DNA of 64,000 nucleotides, from positions 124,001 through 188,000 of the forward strand of contig JAACJM010000085.1 in assembly GCA_013368315.1 (NCBI GenBank), in the 5' to 3' direction. The DNA comes from Tetrapyrgos nigripes. Taxonomy: Eukaryota; Basidiomycota; Agaricomycetes; Agaricales; Campanellaceae. The notes beneath the pieces are model-generated. The model worked only from the letters and a program-made list of their open reading frames with translations, was not told the DNA's origin and did not search any database. Position numbers and translations under genes: made by a program. Positions 15,593-24,682 of the stretch are shown in pieces (the stretch's first letter is position 1; each line of letters opens with the position of its first letter).

Positions 15593-17762
15593 ATGGATTC
15601 CGACCAGTCCGTCCTCGCAGACTTGGGGTACAAACAAGAATTCCAGAGGAATTTTTCGAAAATCGAGCTCTTTGGACTTTCGTTCAACATCGTGGGGGTG
15701 GTACAAAGTATAGCGTAAGGTCTCGCTTCTCGTCTTCGATGCTATCCTCACCGTCTCAACAGCTCAATTCTGGTTTACTCGATTCCCTATGGTGGCCCTG
15801 TATCTATGGTTTGGGGGGTGGGTCTCGATCTGACCAAACCTTCTTATTCTAATCTTTCTTCTTAGTGGTTGACTGGATCAATCTTCATTATTTGCATCGG
15901 CCTCACAATTGCAGAACTCGGTTCTTCTGCGCCTACTTCTGGCGGGCTCTATTTTTGGACTCATCGATATGCGTCCCAAGATATCGCAACTATCTTTCGT
16001 GGCTCGTTGGGTGTAACTACTATCCTCTGTTGGACTCTCTTTCTGGTACTTACCCAGCTACCTTTCAAGATGTCAACACTGCCGGGTATACTTCAGGCGT
16101 CGCTGGGGTCGATTACAGCTGCGCTCTCGCGATATTGACCGGTGCCAGCATTGGCTCAAACGGTACATATATTCCTACCAATGGACACATATAGTAAGCC
16201 ATAGCACTCTCCCAGCCTGTCATTGAAGTTTATTCCTCTATTCTAAGCGGCGTCTTTTGTGCATTGTTGTTGTCGCATGCGTTGATGGCAAGTTTGCCAA
16301 CCAAGGCACTTGCCCGGGCCCAAGTGATCTCTGTCACTCTGAATATTGGGTAAATTCTTGATCCGTTTCACCTTCCAAATTTGCGACTCATGACAACCTT
16401 TCATTAGCGTGTTTGTAGCGCTGGTCATTGCGGTTCCTGCTGCAACGCCTCAACCTCTGAAGAATGACGCAAAATACGTCTTTGGGCATTTCGAAAATAG
16501 TACGTTTCTTGTTCAGACGTGAATGGTTCCCTCTGATGTTCGTTGCAGTCTCTGGATACAGTGATGGATTCGCCTTCTTCATGAGTTTCCTTGCTCCATT
16601 GTGGACTGTCGGTGAGTACCTCTCTTCGTGTTGCGTCGTACTCTCATTTGGAAGCTGTTCAGGGGGATTCGATTCTTCTGTCCATATCTCGGAGGAGGCG
16701 AAAAATGCACGTACCGCTGTCCCGTTCGCAATAATGAGTGCTACAATACTCGGATGTGTTCTTGGTTTTTGTACGTGGACTTTTCAGCTTTTCAAGCAAG
16801 GAACACTCATCTGCTGAACTGTAGCGACCATCCTTGCTCTGACTTTCAACATGGGAAATGACTTGGTGTCGATCATCGAAAATCCCTTTGGTCAACCGAT
16901 GGCAGTTATCTTATTGAACAGTCTGGGTACGAAGGGTCTACTAGCGTTCTGGGCTTTCATTGTGATCACATTGTGAGTGCATCAAACTGGGTTCGGTGTT
17001 TGAAATGGCTAATTATCCACTTATCAGGTATATGTCTGGACTGAATCTCGTACGTGGACAAAAGGTTTCATAGCCTGAGCTCGTAATGCTCACGTTTTCC
17101 CCTTTCTAGCTCATCGCTGCTTCTCGACAAATTTTCGCTTTTTCAAGAGACGGAGCGCTCCCGCTGTCCGGAATTTGGTATCGAATGAACTCAACGACAG
17201 GCACCCCCACAAACGCCGTCTGCATAGCTACACTAATAGCGGCCCTTTGGGGACTTCTGAGCTTTGCTGGTCCAGCAGCAGCCGCAGCGGTCTTTACCTC
17301 AGGCATTGTCTGTCAGTATCTGTGTTATTGCACACCCGTCATCTCCCGTTTTATCGGTGGACAAAGATTTGTGCCAGGCCCGTTTTACCTCGGGAAGTTG
17401 GTGAGTTTTTTAAGTCTGAGTATCGAGCACAACCCTTGACAAGTCTTCAGAGTGGACCGATCGCGACCATAGCCACCTGCTTTATGTTATTCATGACAGT
17501 GGTTCTCCAATTTCCAACGGCCCCGCATCCTGTTGCACAGACCATGAACTACACCGTAGTCGTCGTCGGAGGTACAATCATGCTTGCCACCGCGTACTAT
17601 CTCCTCAGTGGTCGTCACTGGTTTGTAGGACCCGTTGTCACACTACCAGGGGAGAGGGAGGTTAAGCGGGACAACTTGAGTGACCACAGTATGCGTTCTA
17701 ATGTCAAGGGTGACCATGTGATTTCCTTGAACGTCCTACAGAAACAATGGTCTTCGAAGTAG
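15593..17762 (+). CDS. Amino acid/GABA permease (APC family), with apparent frameshift
   Basis: This plasma-membrane transporter resembles fungal GABA/choline-type permeases. The first exon starts MDSDQSVLADLGYKQEFQR and FGLSFNIVGVVQS; next come YSIPYGGPVSMVWGW, LGSSAPTSGGLYFWTHRYAS, YTSGVAGVDY, the motif GGFDSSVHISEEAKNARTAV, NLLIAASRQIFAFSRDGALP and TPTNAVCIATLIAALWGLL. The C-terminus is hydrophilic and ends at TAG 17760-17762. Between WTHRYAS and the expected PRYRNYLSWLVG the frame shifts: the sequence has three C (15975-15977) where four would be needed. Downstream, a GTAACT...CAAG intron restores LVGYVNTAGYTSG. Either a base is missing in the assembly or the allele is broken. Its 3' end lies 215 bp from the peptide precursor, so it could flank or belong to that cluster. 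Confidence 0.8.
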
Positions 17763-17977: not shown

Positions 17978-18771
17978 CTAGAAGGCTGCTACGGGTGCAG
18001 CACCGGTGTCCTCAACTAGGGCATCCGGGAGGTCAATGTCACCTAGACAGATCTAAAAGTTAGTAGCTGATTTCTGTGAAGACAGTACACGGCATTACGT
18101 TTGAAAGCTTTGGCGGGAGCCGCAGCAGCATCGCGTTGCATGAACTCAGGGAGGTCAATGTTACCTATATTGAGGTCGAAAAGGTGAGATATATAGGGTA
18201 TTAAATAAGGATGAATGTCGCCTACGTTTGAAGGCTTTGGCAGGAGCGGCAGCAGCGTCGCGTTGCAAAAATTCGGGGGTGTCGATGTCACCTAGATTGA
18301 GGTCAATGACACAGTCCTATCAATGGAAGGAATATCCTGCATACGTTTGAAAGCTTCGGCAGGAGCTGCAGATGCATCGCGTTGCAAAAATTCGGGGGTG
18401 TCGATATCACCTAGATTGAGGTCAATGATACGAATCTCTCAGCGGAGAGATCTCGCGTACGTTTAAAAGCTTTGGCAGGAGCTGCAGCTGCATCGCGTTG
18501 CAAAAATTCGGGGGTGTCGATGTTACCTAAACTGAGGTCAGTGATACGGACATCTCGATAGAGAGATTATCCTGCATACGCTTGAAAGCTTTGGCAGGGG
18601 CAGCAGCAGCATCACGTTGCAGAAATTCCGGGAGGTCGATTTCGCCTGGTGAAGGACAGGGCTTCACAATGAGGGTGTGGTGTCAAACGAACAAGCAAAC
18701 TTACCTGGCAGAGGAGCAGCAGATGTTGCGGTGAAAAGCACGAGAATAAAGGCGAGGCCAGAGAGCTTCAT
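17978..18771 (-). CDS. Secreted kexin-repeat peptide precursor (candidate dikaritin-like RiPP precursor)
   Basis: Seven exons (18771-18705, 18645-18580, 18526-18461, 18410-18345, 18291-18226, 18164-18099, 18042-17978) join to a 153-residue protein. Exon 1 encodes a signal peptide (start MKLSGLAFILVLF, ending SAAPLPG). Exons 2-6 each encode one 22-residue unit of the form [END]-ID-[TL]-PEF-[LM]-QRD-A[AS]AAPA[KE]AF-KR. Exon 7 encodes a divergent unit without a dibasic site, ending GAAPVAAF. All six introns (50-61 nt) are phase 1. Five of them cut the codon of the Arg in Lys-Arg (C|GT); the first cuts the Gly codon after the signal peptide. Kexin would release five free peptides. Adjacent UstYa-family oxidases suggest post-translational cyclisation, as in dikaritins. 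That is inference: the units contain Phe but no Tyr. Unmodified secreted kexin-processed peptides are the alternative. Confidence 0.85.
18099..18645 (-). repeat. Five tandem exon-intron repeats in the peptide precursor gene
   Basis: Five 66-nt exons (18580-18645, 18461-18526, 18345-18410, 18226-18291, 18099-18164) are near-identical, each encoding one precursor unit. The introns share ends too: the introns before repeats 2-5 finish on the minus strand with variants of GACCTCAATCTAG (CTCAGTTTAG, CTCAATATAG). Repeat period is about 115-127 bp. The pattern shows duplication of a whole exon plus intron, not of exon alone. Confidence 0.9.
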
Positions 18772-19498
18772 GTTGTTGAAGGTTTGGTGAGATTGGTTGA
18801 GCACTGTTAGTGAGGTCGAATGGCGGGCCTCCTCTTTTATATCTCATGTTTTGAATTCTAGGGTCTGAAGACAAAGACTAGCGATAGTCTTAGAGAGCAC
18901 TAAAGCCTGTCTAGGTGGAGCCCCATCTGGGAAGACATAGTTTGATTCTTCTAAAATCGAGTAGAATCAAACTCCTAAATTATTTAATTTCTGGCGTTAA
19001 TTGCTGGAGAAAAAATAATGCTGTGATTGACGGTCGAGACTCCGTCGCTCGCTGTAAAGTGCGACGGAGATATGCATTCTAAACATATTTTTCAGTGAGT
19101 CATCAATGGAGACATCGGCGGTTTGAGAATCGTAATACTTACAAATTTGTGGCACTAAGAGGAGAAACTTTCACAGCTCTCAAATCCAAACAAGGGTCAT
19201 TTCCCGAATCGTCCGAGGACTCTCAAAAGAATATTTCCAATATCTTCCGCAGCGTGTATGTCCGAGATTAAATGAATCTGTCTTTGGGAAGAAGAAACGC
19301 CACAGCGCGAGGGCTTGGGAATGTATAGGAATGAACGGAAAGGCCCCCTTTCATTCTCCTTCATCATCGCATTGGCAACTATGTTATGATAGATGATAAC
19401 TCGATTGGCCTAACGAAAACTTGTGTAAGTTGAGGGTACCTACATACAGACATCTCCAAAACGTACTAACTGGATATCTCCGGCGAGTACACGCTAAT
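18772..19498. promoter_or_regulatory. Upstream region of the precursor gene with three perfect inverted repeats
   Basis: This 727-bp gap holds the precursor promoter and the 3' region of the first UstYa-like gene. Three perfect dyads lie in it: AAGACTA-gcga-TAGTCTT at 18874-18891; 11-bp arms AGTTTGATTCT (18939-18949) and AGAATCAAACT (18963-18973) with a 13-nt spacer; and 9-bp arms CTCCGTCGC (19040-19048) and GCGACGGAG (19061-19069) with a 12-nt spacer. Such dyads could be sites for dimeric transcription factors. No coding frame is supported here. Confidence 0.55.
18834..18841 (-). promoter_or_regulatory. TATA box of the peptide precursor gene
   Basis: The minus strand reads TATAAAAG, 62 nt before the precursor start codon. 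This is the usual TATA spacing for strongly expressed fungal genes; the alcohol dehydrogenase at 23504-24682 has the same octamer 54 nt from its start. Confidence 0.65.
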
Positions 19499-20267
19499 TT
19501 AACCCATTTCTTCAGACAATTCACTCAGCTTGTCGTATACAACAGTCCAATCTTGGCAGGTCTGGGCCCTGCGGAAAGAAACTGCATGAATATTAGGGTC
19601 ACCGGGACCCATTGCTTGCACGCTCTCGAGATTGAGGTCTGAACGACATAGCAACATCTCTCTGAGGTAATTCAGACCTAAAACATCGCTAGTCAATTTA
19701 CCCTCCTGCACAGAGTATTGTTACTTACAGTGTCGGGCGAGAGGATCTTCGACTACTCCCGGAACATCGGGCGCGTCAGAGTGGTCGTGATAGTGCTCAT
19801 CACGGGCTTTCCATGACGCGGATTCGTCGTGAAAGGTTAAGTTTTCCTCCTGAGCAACATATGCCAAACGAATGATGTCGAGGCACCGAAGTTGGTGGAA
19901 CATTGAAGGGAGGAAGGGTTTCGAATCTGACCCAAGACGAACGATGCCCTCATGCGGATAGAGTGCCGCCCACTGCGCATTTGTGGATGGCGTTGAGTTT
20001 ACCTGGTAATTGACGGTATTTTCGAGATCCATGATAACTGTAGGGAGCTGACCGATGTCCCATACTGCGACACCTTCTGAGAGCATTTTCCCTGCATGAA
20101 TTGAATCAGTATCGTCCAGAGTAAATGGTCAACCTATTACACGTACAAGCAATTCTACTGTCTGCCTTCTGCGCTGTCTTCGACACGTTAACTCTCGCGT
20201 AGAACACAAGGAACAATGATAGCGACAACACGCCGGCAATGGCTATTTGACGAAGAGAGACTGCCAT
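19499..20267 (-). CDS. UstYa-like (DUF3328) oxidase with altered HxxHC motifs
   Basis: Three exons (20267-20147, 20091-19729, 19677-19499) join to 220 residues. A short cytosolic start is followed by a single membrane anchor (IAIAGVLSLSLFLVFYA), then the lumenal domain: NAQWAALYPHEGIVRL, the first UstYa motif SMFHQLRCLDIIR, a His/Asp-rich stretch (DEHYHDHSD), and the second motif ARHCLNYLREMLLCRSDLNLE. The C-terminus has QTCQDWTVVY. The usual HxxHC motifs read HQLRC and LARHC here, so one His is replaced in each. UstYa-family proteins carry out oxidative cyclisation or related oxidations of ribosomal peptides in ustiloxin-type pathways, often in pairs. Altered motifs suggest a non-catalytic partner or a changed mechanism. 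The last intron splits the Cys codon of the second motif (CACT|GT). Confidence 0.88.
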
Positions 20268-20469
20268 GGTATGGTAGACTGAGTGAAAGATGCTTGGTCG
20301 AATGGGGTAGCCGTCGACAAAATCCAAGACTAATTCTAGGCTCAAAGAGGTAATAACTAGAGGGCGGTACATGTCGAGCTCCCGGCAACCCCTTAATTCT
20401 TCGCGTAATTGGAATGCAATCTAGCAAGGAATAGCCGATATCTGACGCTAAGGATAAGTAAAGTGATCC
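20268..20469. promoter_or_regulatory. Shared bidirectional promoter of the two UstYa-like genes
   Basis: The two oxidase genes start back to back with 202 bp between start codons, which suggests joint control. The plus strand holds GGTCGAATGG at 20296-20305; the same 10-mer occurs upstream of the precursor at 18814-18823. In both cases it lies within about 30-55 nt of the start codon of the minus-strand gene. Confidence 0.55.
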
Positions 20470-21178
20470 ATGAACGTAGTTGGCTTCAAAACAACGATGC
20501 CCCACTCACAAGTTTCGCTAGCTGTCATCCTAAGTCTCCTGATCCTAGTGATTTCTCTCGCAAATCCCATCTTCCTGTCGCACTTCCATCCTAGAACTGA
20601 GCCCGGCAGTGTTCCCAAACGAAAATACAGTAAGGACGTCCTCTTCGACCCCACATCTTCTCACATCTTTCCAGCATACGTCGACGATGATTGGCCAGAG
20701 TTTCTCCCACTCGATCTTCCTGATGTGCTGATGACGATGGAAGAGAGTAGGCATTACCCCATCACTGGTCCGGACGTGTTGGAAGAATGGGCGTCGACCG
20801 CTGCTCGAGGTTTCGGTTACCTTCAGCTGGGGGAGCAGAAACGTCTGTTTGCTTTGTCAATGTTCCACCAGTTCCACTGCCTGAGGTTGATGCGGTATGC
20901 TCTCGAAGGGCGCCATGATGCAGGAAGTCGAGGGCATATGCAGCACTGTAACGCGATTCCTATTCCATACGTGCAGGCGCTCATCTAACACATCTCAAGG
21001 TTTGACGTATCTGCGTCAAATGATCCTGTGTCATCCCGACTTGACCCTCGAACCAGCCGATATCCTGAACCGAGACTATGAGCTGAAGAGAATGGGTTCA
21101 ACACATGTATGCAAAGATTGGTCCAAGGTGTATGAGGCGATGGAGGAGAATTTCACGCAAAGAAAACCAGTACCTTAG
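20470..21178 (+). CDS. UstYa-like (DUF3328) oxidase with intact HxxHC motifs
   Basis: Two exons (20470-20947 and 21000-21178) join to 218 residues; a second start at 20497 would give 209. The protein has one N-terminal membrane anchor (VSLAVILSLLILVISLA), then a lumenal domain with DDWPEFLPLDLPDV and the UstYa motifs SMFHQFHCLRLMRYALEG (HQFHC) and GHMQHCLTYLRQMILCHPD (HMQHC), and a C-terminal VCKDWSKVYEAM. Both HxxHC motifs are complete, so this is the likely catalytic oxidase for the neighbouring precursor; that role is inferred from the ustiloxin, phomopsin and asperipin pathways. The intron sits at the same place as the last intron of the divergent gene (CACT|GT), and both final exons are 179 nt, so the two arose by duplication. 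The stop lies 78 bp before THI6. Confidence 0.9.
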
Positions 21179-21256: not shown

Positions 21257-23412
21257 ATGACGCGCACCATCGACTACTCGCTGTATCTGGTGACTGGACG
21301 AGAATTGCTACCTCAAGGCAAGGTTCGGATGCACAACTGGAGACATGCACAAAGCTCATTTTCTATAGGATTATTTCGAGTCGCTTGAAGAGGTGAAGTC
21401 TTTGCAAAAGATATCTGATTTCTCCTGACAATAATGACCAGTCGCTGCAAGGAGGTGTCACTGTTGTTCAAATACGAGAAAAGAAAGCAGAAACTGCTGA
21501 GGTCAGTCTTTATTCTAAATGTCTCTTGGTCGCACTGAGAACAATTGCAACAGTTTCTGGACATTGCACTCAAGTCCAAAGCCATCTGCGACCGTTACAA
21601 TGTTCCTCTAATCATCAATGACCGAATCGACATTGCTCTAGCAATCGATGCTGATGGTATTCACGTCGGTCAAACAGACATGCCTGTCTCCATGGCACGA
21701 AAGTTACTTCCGCAAAAATGTATCATTGGAGTGTCCTGCAACAATAAAGAAGAGCTGCAGAAAGCATTAGAAAATGGAGCCGACTATGTGGGTATTGGTG
21801 CCATATATGCTACCCAAACCAAAGATCTGACCAAACCTTTGGTTGGTGTGCGAGGCATCGGTCCGCTCTTACAAATGCTAGATGGTACCAGTGTGAAAGC
21901 TGTAGCAATTGGTACGAGATCTCGCTCTAAGGTGATTTCATGCCAATCCTAATCAAGGAACATAGGTGGTATCAATTCGAAGAATGTTCTGAGAGTTCTG
22001 CACGGCTCTGTATCCGGAACTGGGCATTCACTGGATGGCATTGCCGTTGTGTCTGCCATCGTCGCATTAAATCAACCTCGTCAGGCTGCTTCTGAACTAT
22101 CTGAGATACTCAGCGAGTTCAAAAAAGGCCCATCTATTTTTCACGGAATGAGTTCAGCTGCAAATGGACATACTACCGATTCAATCACCAGCGGCGTAGT
22201 TTCACTCATGAATCAAATCAGAACACTCAATCCTCTGGTTCATCAAGTGAGTATGTCTGGGCGACTCTTGAATTGTATCCACTAAAACATATCCTTTTCA
22301 GATCACCAATAGTGTTGTAACAGCTCAGTCTGCCAATATCACCATTTCTATTGGTGCTAGTCCCATTATGGCTACGGCTGTAGACGAAATGTCCGACTTG
22401 GCCACCATTTGCGGAGCTCTTCTCGTGAATATTGGTACCTTGACGCCTCCTGCCTGTGCTGGAATGTTAGCAGCTGGTTAGTGTCTTTAGAAAATGCGAT
22501 TTTTGTGTGCTGAGCCCCTCGCCGCCCTGTAGGGTGCCATGTGAATACTTGGAAGAAACCGATTGTCTTCGATCCTGTAGGAGTAGGTGCTTCGGAATTC
22601 AGAAAGCGTGTTGTGAATGGCGAGTTGCTATGACGGTCTCTGCTACACGTTCTCCTCATCTCTTTCTAGATCTGCTCAACAAATGGCAGCCTAGCGTAAT
22701 TAAAGGCAACGCTGGCGAACTAGCAGCTTTGGCGGGATCAATAGAAGTGAATCTTGCCTCTCTCCCTGCAGTTAGCTTCTGACGCATTTCTTTAGGTAAC
22801 ATCTAAGGGTGTCGATACTGTAGGAAATGGCTTTGAGGATCCCGTAGGTTTCGTCACCGCACTAGCCCGACGAGAAAGTAAGCTAAAACACATCATTTGA
22901 TTCTGCTAATCTCATCTTGTAATGATTTTAGGATGCATCGTTGTGCTCACTGGAAAAACGGATTATGTTTCTGATGGCCATACCTGTGCGGTCCTCGACA
23001 ATGGTCATGAGTTTTTGGGCAAAATGACAGGGTCCGGGTGCGCTACTGGATCTTGTATAGCTTCATTTTGCGCCGTGGCGTCAGCGTCAGCTCAAACCGA
23101 AGGACAATCTCTTCGCGGCGTCTTGGCGAAAGGCGATATGTTTCTTGCATCCATTGCTGGGTGAGTGTTATCCTTTCTTGCACGTTCACGTCATCTCAGA
23201 CTTTTCATTCCGCAGTATACTCGTTTTCAACGTAGCAGCTGAGCTGGCGGCTGCTAGGGACGACGTTAAGGGTCCTGGAACGTTCTTCCCAGCGTTGATT
23301 GACGAGTTGGTACGTTTTTTTCTTGTGTGATTTTTATATACTTACCTCTTTTGTTCAGACCTCCTTGACTCCAGAAGTAGTGCAAGAACATATCAAGATC
23401 AAGATTGTCTGA
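21257..23412 (+). CDS. THI6: Bifunctional thiamine-phosphate synthase / hydroxyethylthiazole kinase (THI6)
   Basis: The two thiamine-salvage activities are fused, as is normal in fungi. The N-terminal half is ThiE-like: DYSLYLVTGRELLPQG, SLQGGVTVVQIREKKAET, YNVPLIINDRIDIALAI, DGIHVGQTDMP, ENGADYVGIGAIYATQTK and VKAVAIGGINSKN. The C-terminal half is ThiM-like: NPLVHQITNSVVTAQSAN, MATAVDEM, LLVNIGTLT, IVFDPVGVGASEFR, VIKGNAGELAALAG, CIVVLTGKTDYVSDG and KMTGSGCATGSCIASF. It condenses HMP-diphosphate with thiazole phosphate to thiamine monophosphate and phosphorylates hydroxyethylthiazole. The start at 21257 gives MTRTIDYSLYLVTGRE, matching the family start. About ten short introns were inferred. 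It sits next to the peptide cluster but has a housekeeping role. Confidence 0.93.
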
Positions 23413-23503: not shown

Positions 23504-24682
23504 CTAGTATTCCCAACTCAAAACACCTCTATATCGCATCTTGCCTGATTGAAGACGGTGGACGGCAGCGTTGACTCCTTCCACAGTCATTGGGAACTTT
23601 TCTACCATGGCATGAATCTGGTTGCGTCCAGCAAACTCTAGCATTTTGTATCTGGGAGTATATATTAGCTCAAGATGAGCGTGGATAGTGATTTTATGAC
23701 ACTCACTGCATGTGACGAGTTGCGAGTTTGCTGCCGATAATTTTGTGGCCCTGGATGAGGGTTGGCATGTATGGGGCAGTCAATTCCCCATCCGAAACAG
23801 TGAGAGGAAGAATCGTCGCCATTGTGCTCAAGATCGGGTAAAAGACGGATAAATTGAGCTTGGCTGAGGTCGTTATCAAGAGTCTGTCGATGGACTTCAT
23901 CCCAAATGTGGTATAATCGTCGACTCTTTTTGTTGCGTAGAACTCCTTGGCACCTAATTTCATAGCCTCTTCCCGCTTGTCCTCGGAACCAGAGAAAACG
24001 ACGACCTCTGCGCCAATTTTAGATGCGAATTGGATGGCGAGATGACCAAGACCACCGATGCCAACCACCCCTACTCGGTCATAGGGCTTGACAAAGTCCA
24101 TTGTCGGTGTGAATACAGTGGCGCCTCCACCTGAGGAAAGGTCAGCATGGGCTGGAATACAAAGGAATATGACGATACATACACATGAGAGGAGCCGCGT
24201 CCTCAGAAGACATCTCATCGGGAATTTTAAACAACCACTGTTCCTTCCTGACGACGAGGCTACTCAGAGAACCCATTTCGTAGTCGGCTATACCAAAGTA
24301 CTGAGCATTGGGGCAATATACATCTTGCCCTTGCAGGCAGACTGAGCAGAGCCCGCATGTGAAATTAGGATAACCCCAGCCGACTCTGTCACCAATTTTG
24401 AGGTTGGTACACGCCGAGCCGACTTCCTGCACAATGCCAACGCCTGAAAAAGATTAATCAACAAATAATTATATACAAAGAACGTTCATCATGACCAAAG
24501 TAATACGTACCTTCATGGCCTAGTACCATATCTGTTTTGCGATAGTGTACGTCGGTGCCGCATAGGCCCGAGTGTGTTACACGCACAACAACTTCGTCAC
24601 TTTTTGGAGGTTGGTGAGTGGAAATTTTTTTGACAATCTCTCCAGACAAGGAACCGCGAAACTGGATGGCTTCGTAAGTCAT
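23504..24682 (-). CDS. Zinc-dependent alcohol dehydrogenase (MDR, CAD/ADH6-like)
   Basis: The protein is a medium-chain zinc alcohol dehydrogenase. The start at 24682-24680 gives [17 protein letters not shown]. Catalytic-zinc residues lie in [11 protein letters not shown] and VLGHEG; the structural zinc loop is [15 protein letters not shown]. The dinucleotide fold shows [19 protein letters not shown], followed by [16 protein letters not shown], whose Ser suggests NADP(H). The C-terminus is [16 protein letters not shown] ... YRGVLSWEY. Close relatives reduce aromatic and aliphatic aldehydes, including cinnamaldehydes, which would fit a lignocellulose degrader; the substrate is not known. A TATAAAAG box (24737-24744) lies 54 nt upstream of the start. 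Confidence 0.9.

Follow-up and report, generated by a model that had tools for sequence, protein, structure and literature searches.

A candidate three-gene pathway for a secreted, oxidatively modified peptide in Tetrapyrgos nigripes, with an unequal pair of DUF3328 proteins

Does a 3.2-kb locus in which a repeat precursor lies beside two UstYa/DUF3328 genes encode an oxidatively modified peptide, and do both DUF3328 proteins act as oxidases? An earlier note on this DNA had proposed a dikaritin-like cluster in an agaricomycete. Gene models rebuilt from the DNA of the window, the whole stretch of 64,000 nucleotides, end exactly at the bounds given in that note, 17978 and 21178. The host was correctly recognised, as UstY1 is 100% identical to a public protein of Tetrapyrgos nigripes (Agaricales), model D9758_006800, which has the same splice joins as the rebuilt UstY1 and 35 further residues at the N-terminus. 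The features of the locus are as follows.

17978..18771, minus strand: precursor gene (KEX2-processed repeat protein, KEP), seven exons, 153 residues (splice model and translation)
18705..18771, minus strand: exon 1, signal-peptide-like leader MKLSGLAFILVLFTATSAAPLP (splice model and crude hydrophobicity score)
18580..18645, minus strand: exon 2 (66 bp), unit 1, EIDLPEFLQRDAAAAPAKAF-KR, N-terminus from leader cleavage, not KR (splice model)
18461..18526, minus strand: exon 3 (66 bp), unit 2, NIDTPEFLQRDAAAAPAKAF-KR (splice model)
18345..18410, minus strand: exon 4 (66 bp), unit 3, DIDTPEFLQRDASAAPAEAF-KR (splice model)
18226..18291, minus strand: exon 5 (66 bp), unit 4, DIDTPEFLQRDAAAAPAKAF-KR (splice model)
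18099..18164, minus strand: exon 6 (66 bp), unit 5, NIDLPEFMQRDAAAAPAKAF-KR (splice model)
17978..18042, minus strand: exon 7 (65 bp), last unit, degenerate, DIDLPDALVEDTGAAPVAAF, with the stop codon (splice model)
19499..20267, minus strand: UstY1, DUF3328 protein, 220 residues; exons 20147-20267, 19729-20091 and 19499-19677; motifs HQLRC and LARHC (splice model, Pfam)
20268..20496, no strand: gap of 229 bp between the divergent UstY coding regions, a possible shared promoter (coordinates)
20497..21178, plus strand: UstY2, DUF3328 protein, 209 residues; exons 20497-20947 and 21000-21178; intact motifs HQFHC and HMQHC (splice model, Pfam)

The precursor gene and its repeat units

The rebuilt models agree with the proposal of a secreted precursor with five kexin-releasable units. 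The protein starts with a signal-peptide-like segment (score 2.86, crude score and inspection) and continues with five 22-residue units, each ending in a KR site at which cleavage is predicted, and a degenerate sixth unit that stops at the stop codon. In the predicted splicing, one full unit corresponds to one 66-bp exon. All six introns are GT...AG, measure 50-61 bp and lie in phase 1, and each intron that comes after a unit interrupts the codon for Arg in the KR cleavage site. Such a frame-preserving cassette could allow unit number to change through exon duplication or skipping. The exon-per-unit design is one of the two less expected features at this locus, the other being the unequal oxidases. 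The earlier note was silent on both the one-unit-per-exon structure and the histidine losses of UstY1.

The precursor contains no Trp, Cys or His and has 0 Tyr in its 153 residues. Phe20 is kept in six of six units, including the terminal one, whose end is Phe20; this terminal unit shares 11 of 20 residues with unit 4 and retains the C-terminal Phe, while the internal Phe is gone. Judged by codon comparison, the units are under purifying selection. Identity among the unit exons is 79-92% versus 54-75% for the introns. With the first codon of exon 2 entered as Arg, though it is Gly, and with five related exons whose columns are not fully independent, third codon positions make up 15 of the 21 variable exon columns (hypergeometric P 1.4e-5), and dN (0.02-0.13) is below dS (0.14-1.53) in all ten unit pairs.

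A search of UstYa neighbourhoods and a few pattern matches revealed four more repeat precursors near UstYa genes in T. nigripes. One of them (C337) is accompanied by two intact UstYa genes; the half-site partner described below therefore does not accompany every such precursor. The exon-per-unit layout is common to one further UstYa-linked gene in the genome, and a gapped exon-pair scan of the DNA read, made before one re-reading at C31, gave no additional precursor of this design. When compared with the T. nigripes genome, the precursor matched its own seven exons plus six low-scoring stretches of C19 with 6-9 internal stops. The DNA pattern of the unit gave seven matches, two of them the locus itself, and the five elsewhere compare with two for the reversed pattern, an excess that is weak at most. 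Four tandem repeats near other UstYa genes or pattern matches initially resembled precursors. Those at C93, C213 and C3/L009 were set aside as non-coding in appearance, with stops in the printed frames, and the one at C253 resembles, by eye, a zinc-finger-type transposon remnant.

A protein search with the precursor gave no homologue from another species at E<=1 among the 7998 candidates with most shared words, a negative that is weak because alanine-rich words crowd the search. The tie of the precursor to the conserved UstY pair is therefore one genome's evidence. The same weak search found no public protein for the precursor, though its neighbour UstY1 is annotated. An exon-per-unit precursor thus shows how such genes could evade annotation. 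In the available part of a lichen study, UstY clusters are described that yielded no repeat precursor (PMC12048977).

Intact and degenerate DUF3328 proteins

Both neighbours belong to the family named in the earlier note, with matches to Pfam PF11807 (UstYa) at E 1.4e-13 and 51.6 bits for UstY1 and E 9.2e-18 and 65.3 bits for UstY2 (curated cut-off 25 bits). The description of the two as oxidases held in part: the HxxHC(x)nHxxHC pattern of catalytic DUF3328 copper enzymes is intact in UstY2 (HQFHC, HMQHC) but not in UstY1, where two of the four motif histidines, the second of motif 1 and the first of motif 2, are gone. DUF3328 proteins were only recently shown to be dimeric copper enzymes; the accessible portion of that report describes CctR as a copper- and O2-dependent dimer, with its four motif histidines placed so that two Cu can be held where the subunits meet, and with alanine mutants of the conserved motif His/Cys inactive (PMC12435403). 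As UstY1 lacks two of these histidines and the CctR mutants are inactive, the pair is probably one oxidase and a partner. Monomer models are weak for UstY2 (pLDDT 63, pTM 0.38), with a predicted N-terminal helix, and moderate for UstY1 (pLDDT 78, pTM 0.62). Against solved structures, UstY2 gave no significant match by sequence (best E 0.053) and UstY1 none by fold (Foldseek, best E 4.6).

The histidine losses of UstY1 recur in all 120 matches listed from a total of 151, its own public model being among the 120. H106, C110, H161 and C162 are invariant, and R109 nearly so, in an alignment of 50 rows made up of UstY1 itself and 49 of these 120 matches. Arg occupies the place of the lost motif-1 His in 118 of 122 degenerate rows, and a second degenerate group carries Gln in place of this Arg (HQLQC). 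Of 43 matches to UstY2, 41 keep the four motif histidines; of the other two, one does not cover the aligned region and P0043 has a degenerate motif. The motifs are invariant in the 41 rows of its alignment (A1), which left out P0001 (own), P0033 and the degenerate P0043. In a tree of the degenerate form, computed with the motif columns left out and with three very long rows (own_C441, own_C213, own_C93r) dropped from 67, the fewest changes were two, and a single origin was not rejected (AU p 0.114).

In T. nigripes a degenerate gene lies near an intact one at 8/8 loci read, of which C93-36kb and C341 are copies (183/186 residues alike) and C31 has a partner whose intactness was judged on motif 1 alone. 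Intact-only UstYa loci also exist in the DNA read, e.g. C337 and C172. Elsewhere, among the 27 named public rows for UstY2, 13 share species and contig with a listed UstY1 relative, on 12 contigs of 0.16-5.3 Mb, as judged indirectly from equal contig size in one species; the remaining 14 have no listed UstY1 relative on such a contig. By this indirect co-location both UstY types occur on shared contigs in 12 other Agaricales genomes. In Armillaria gallica and Stygiomarasmius the locus tags of the UstY1- and UstY2-type genes are consecutive. No account of intact/degenerate DUF3328 pairs was found in the portions consulted of the literature, mostly open-access papers. Such pairing beside a precursor may be the sign of a type of modified peptide that has so far been overlooked.

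Proposed pathway and its alternatives

We lean, with some reserve, towards reading the locus as a minimal pathway, of three genes, to an oxidatively modified peptide that is secreted and released by kexin, with an intact and a half-site oxidase. By analogy with the named families, KEX2 would cleave after KR and KEX1 would remove KR, leaving 20-residue Phe-ended peptides, and the membrane-anchored DUF3328 proteins would work in the lumen of the secretory pathway. UstY2, as carrier of the copper site, would oxidise the peptide at a position other than Tyr, either Phe20 at the C-terminus or, within the PEF stretch, Phe7. UstY1 would be its conserved half-site partner, pairing with UstY2, aiding its folding or presenting the substrate. 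At the level of sequence this resembles a dikaritin-like pathway whose intact/half-site oxidase pair is perhaps a heterodimer.

A plain KEP, releasing linear surface-active, signalling or defence peptides while the UstYa genes serve another substrate, would fit the absence of Tyr, Trp, Cys and His from the precursor and the linear, minimally modified KEP peptides described, in the available text, from four other agaricomycetes (PMC9769878). This account appears less likely, as the accessible part of a KEP survey places DUF3328 genes within 15 genes of only 103 of 1680 basidiomycete KEPs (6.1%; PMC7329392), while two are found here in 3.2 kb; the four other precursors near UstYa genes, in the scope given above, and the lack of any recognised gene for another substrate or for biosynthesis among the 18 ORF stretches scanned in the flanks, where 11 had no family match, also argue against it. 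The partner role itself is contested by the possibility that UstY1 is itself catalytic and performs a different step, its metal site being altered to two His, two Cys and the conserved Arg. The invariance of H106, C110, H161 and C162 and the regularity of the Arg, too great for simple decay, speak for such a site, but the inactive CctR mutants and the group with Gln in place of Arg make it unlikely. An altered-site UstY1 would contest the partner role only and is compatible with a modified product. A decaying cluster, with the precursor or UstY1 a pseudogene, could be read from the degenerate terminal unit and the two missing histidines, but is very improbable given the open reading frames, dN below dS throughout, the constancy of the UstY1 form among the matches listed and the same-contig relatives of both UstY genes in other genera.

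Extended beyond this locus, the favoured pathway leads to a more tentative proposal, to which we give rather less than even weight. In Agaricomycetes, DUF3328-modified ribosomal peptides would form a branch of their own, made on obligate intact/half-site heterodimers, and the half-site form would have evolved repeatedly through loss of the same two histidines. Exon-cassette precursors would have been missed by protein-based surveys, which would partly explain why KEPs with DUF3328 genes looked rare in Basidiomycota.

Relation to known peptide pathways

Dikaritin clusters usually, although not universally, encode peptidases or methyltransferases. In a Pfam scan of 18 flanking ORF stretches (about 5.7-39 kb of the window), where introns break genes, seven matched a family, 11 matched none, and neither enzyme type was recognised. 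The DNA of the flanking thiamine gene matched itself only and so gave no second copy of the flank. Like ustiloxin, phomopsin and asperipin-2a loci, the T. nigripes locus has a secreted multi-unit KR precursor beside DUF3328 genes; it differs in its basidiomycete host, one unit per exon, one degenerate DUF3328 motif, no recognised nearby peptidase or methyltransferase, and a Tyr-free precursor. The dikaritin-like assignment of the earlier note thus fits in precursor architecture and UstYa genes but not in the Tyr expected of a classical core (victorin excepted). In ustiloxin, phomopsin and asperipin it is Tyr that becomes crosslinked (PMC9233826, PMC7329392, as far as available). Among KEPs that have DUF3328 neighbours, 65.6% of the repeat sequences contain Tyr and about a third are without it (PMC7329392). 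KEPs beside DUF3328 genes in basidiomycetes are already catalogued in that survey, and the kind of set is therefore not new. Compared with other agaricomycete KEPs, the precursor shares the signal peptide, repeats and KR sites and differs in having two adjacent UstYa genes and each repeat in its own exon.

The victorin pathway carries DUF3328-type proteins and a KEP-like precursor. Its ring is closed at a C-terminal Phe, according to the accessible text (PMC9233826); the T. nigripes unit is likewise Phe-ended before KR, a likeness by description, not sequence comparison, and from a basidiomycete. UstY2 shares the double HxxHC and the predicted N-terminal helix with the copper-dependent enzymes CctR, ApnU and AprY, although CctR is a reported homodimer, in contrast with the unequal pair proposed here, in which UstY1 is short of two of four His. 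Where a conserved half-site form accompanies an intact one, the split of labour between subunits can be tested directly, and conserved pairs of this type suggest that oxidation may affect many peptides of mushrooms. The plant BURP-domain cyclases, which the CctR authors compare with DUF3328 in the available text (PMC12435403), are likewise four-His, two-copper peptide crosslinkers, an analogy from another family and other organisms.

Organisation of the precursor gene and its neighbours

A KEX2-processed repeat protein (KEP) encoded beside UstYa genes is a kind of cluster already known in basidiomycetes. Judged from its gene models, the locus on contig C84 of Tetrapyrgos nigripes is a predicted variant in two respects, an exon-per-unit precursor and an unequal pair of oxidases, UstY1 and UstY2, and no description of either was found in the literature searched. 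The genome comprises 98.46 Mb in 587 contigs, and the window corresponds to C84:124001-188000. The secreted repeat precursor adjoining two UstYa genes that the earlier note had described was confirmed by splice models and Pfam matches, and the proposed DUF3328 profile check placed both UstY1 and UstY2 in the UstYa family in Pfam. UstY1 is 100% identical to T. nigripes protein D9758_006800 (Agaricales, Campanellaceae).

Features of the C84 locus (window positions)
17110-17439: ORF with Pfam match, amino-acid permease
18771 to 17978, minus: precursor gene, splice model with seven exons
Exon 1: signal-peptide-like leader
Exons 2 to 6: 66 bp each, one unit per exon, [E/N/D]ID[T/L]PEF[L/M]QRDA[A/S]AAPA[K/E]AF-KR
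Exon 7: degenerate unit, Phe last, then stop
20267, minus: UstY1 start
20497, plus: UstY2 start
21539-21949 and 22272-22478: Pfam matches to TMP synthase and hydroxyethylthiazole kinase, respectively, thiamine-synthesis gene

The three cluster genes sit between the permease and the thiamine-synthesis gene (Pfam matches in ORFs). The UstY1 and UstY2 starts are separated by 229 bp, and the precursor starts 727 bp past the UstY1 stop. A zinc-type alcohol dehydrogenase (ADH_zinc_N, 23703-24263, minus strand) lies ~2.5 kb from UstY2; it could be a tailoring enzyme, yet is ordinary in appearance.

The six predicted precursor introns (GT...AG, 50-61 bp) are all in phase 1, and each of the five that follow a unit falls within the codon for the Arg of KR. 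With every unit exon at 66 bp, the loss or gain of one by skipping or duplication leaves the reading frame intact. Given the predicted splicing, five of the six introns would, if retained, introduce an in-frame stop, and the remaining one a frameshift.

The unit exons are genuine coding sequence. Third codon positions account for 15 of the 21 variable columns across the five exons (P 1.4e-5), and the 10 exon pairs, which are non-independent and in which exon 2 was entered with Arg as its opening codon although that codon is Gly, differ by 70 synonymous versus 26 nonsynonymous changes (dN 0.02-0.13 versus dS 0.14-1.53). Identity is 54-75% among the introns, as against 79-92% among the unit exons. 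The entire 20-residue unit is conserved, and selection between units does not by itself locate the core. The terminal unit agrees with unit 4 at 11 of 20 residues, among them AAP and the Phe at the C-terminus; the internal Phe is gone. The residues kept point to the C-terminal half as a possible core.

Motifs and pairing of the two oxidases

The DUF3328 hydroxylase CctR is described, in part of its report, as a membrane-associated homodimer that binds two copper ions per subunit through an HxxHC(x)nHxxHC motif located where the subunits meet, alanine mutants being inactive (PMC12435403). UstY2 retains both motifs (HQFHC and HMQHC), and UstY1 carries HQLRC and LARHC. UstY1 and UstY2 were aligned with all 163 proteins from both searches, which for UstY1 means the 120 matches listed of 151, the other 31 standing outside the motif count. 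Intact motifs occur in 42 rows, namely UstY2 and 41 of its 43 matches. In 122 rows (UstY1, its 120 listed matches including its own public model, and P0043 from the UstY2 search) motif 1 lacks its second His, replaced by Arg in 118, and motif 2 lacks its first; P0033 has no aligned motif. The motif residues left in UstY1 (H106, C110, H161 and C162) do not vary across UstY1 and 49 of its listed matches. Organisms named among the listed UstY1 matches range from Agaricales through Russula, Suillus, Trametes, Rickenella and Hysterangium, and all are Agaricomycetes.

UstYa loci of T. nigripes were located by exon search and their motifs then read. Degenerate genes (HQLRC, HQLKC or HQLQC) were found at eight loci (C84, C253, C341, C93 near 36 kb, C93 near 110 kb, C68, C31 and C441), with an intact gene within ~17 kb at all eight and within 3 kb at six, the C31 partners being scored as intact on motif 1 only, since the stretches read there showed no motif 2. 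The C341 and C93-36 kb loci are copies (183/186 residues), leaving seven independent degenerate loci. Such near-identical copies (C93 ~36-40 kb and C341:1-12 kb; also C178 and C441, 177/177) are possibly haplotigs or recent duplications. Intact-only loci in the DNA read include C337 and C172; at C178 and C213-20 kb the reading covered just the intact gene, and motifs were read in part at C421, C1, C71 and C213-104 kb. Of the 27 named UstY2 rows from public genomes, 13 share an equal-sized contig, taken as the same contig, with a listed UstY1 relative of the same species (12 contigs) and 14 do not; these contigs span 0.16-5.3 Mb, and adjacency is shown by two pairs of consecutive locus tags only (Stygiomarasmius scandens VKT23_000607/000608 and Armillaria gallica 1072638/1072639).

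In a 67-row tree the HQLRC set groups apart from the four HQLQC genes of T. nigripes, with its public rows (30/30) all falling to the same side of a branch that has SH-aLRT 96. The same two histidines may have been lost twice independently, since the degenerate label needs two changes on the tree with motif columns removed and three long rows dropped, yet a single clade of all degenerate rows is not rejected under the same treatment (AU p 0.114).

Proposed pathway and relation to known clusters

From the families named, the precursor would enter the secretory pathway, KEX2 and KEX1 would free 20-residue peptides, and both oxidases would lie in the same membranes; their models have one N-terminal helix each, that of UstY2 being of low confidence overall. 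A UstY1/UstY2 heterodimer is proposed because co-location is conserved and the motifs are unequal, and we infer a division of labour in which UstY2 would provide the copper site and oxidise a side chain, UstY1 pairing with it. That the peptides stay unmodified is a live alternative, because the agaricomycete KEP peptides detected in one study were linear and minimally modified (PMC9769878).

Sections of Umemura 2020 count 103 of the 1680 KEPs of basidiomycetes (6.1%) as having DUF3328 genes nearby, versus a stated 30.1% in Ascomycota, and suggest that the basidiomycete motif may differ or that cyclisation hardly occurs there (PMC7329392). The C84 locus offers two concrete possibilities here: precursors split across exons, which surveys of proteins could overlook, and a second form of DUF3328. 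By term counts, "intron" and "exon" are absent from the main text of both Le Marquer 2019 (PMC6339444) and Umemura 2020. Pleurotus ostreatus is credited, in part of another report, with 16 UstYa-like genes, six of them developmentally expressed (PMC8893723).

Other precursors in the genome

The precursor survey of T. nigripes covered UstYa neighbourhoods and a few pattern matches.

Further candidate precursors
C337:38597-39078, plus: signal exon and three unit exons of 60, 66 and 41 bp, [V/L]EPL[E/A]PFLEFG...
C68:84670-83923, minus: thirteen VPHEYGPD units, no introns between units
C31:574872-574593, minus: two units, VPHTYK and VPHTYT, leader resembling that of C68
C421:22678-22322, minus: three units, ADYE[L/V]DP in each

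The C337 precursor also has one unit per exon in phase 1 with third-position-biased differences; it lacks Tyr, has a KR site after one unit only and adjoins two intact UstYa genes. The C68 units are mostly followed by KR, with intact and degenerate (HQLQC) UstYa genes nearby, the C31 precursor sits among five UstYa genes, and the C421 contig has at least two. Predicted precursors with Tyr thus occur in the same genome as the Tyr-less form built of exon cassettes. Where the terminal unit of C84 points to the C-terminal half, the units at C68, C31 and C337 have their aromatic residues closer to the front or the middle. A half-site UstYa, having lost two of the four motif histidines, accompanies the C84, C68 and C31 precursors and not that of C337 (C421 was read in part). 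At C93:37007 (plus strand), a small secreted protein with no clear KR repeats lies between degenerate and intact UstYa genes and is possibly a single-core precursor.
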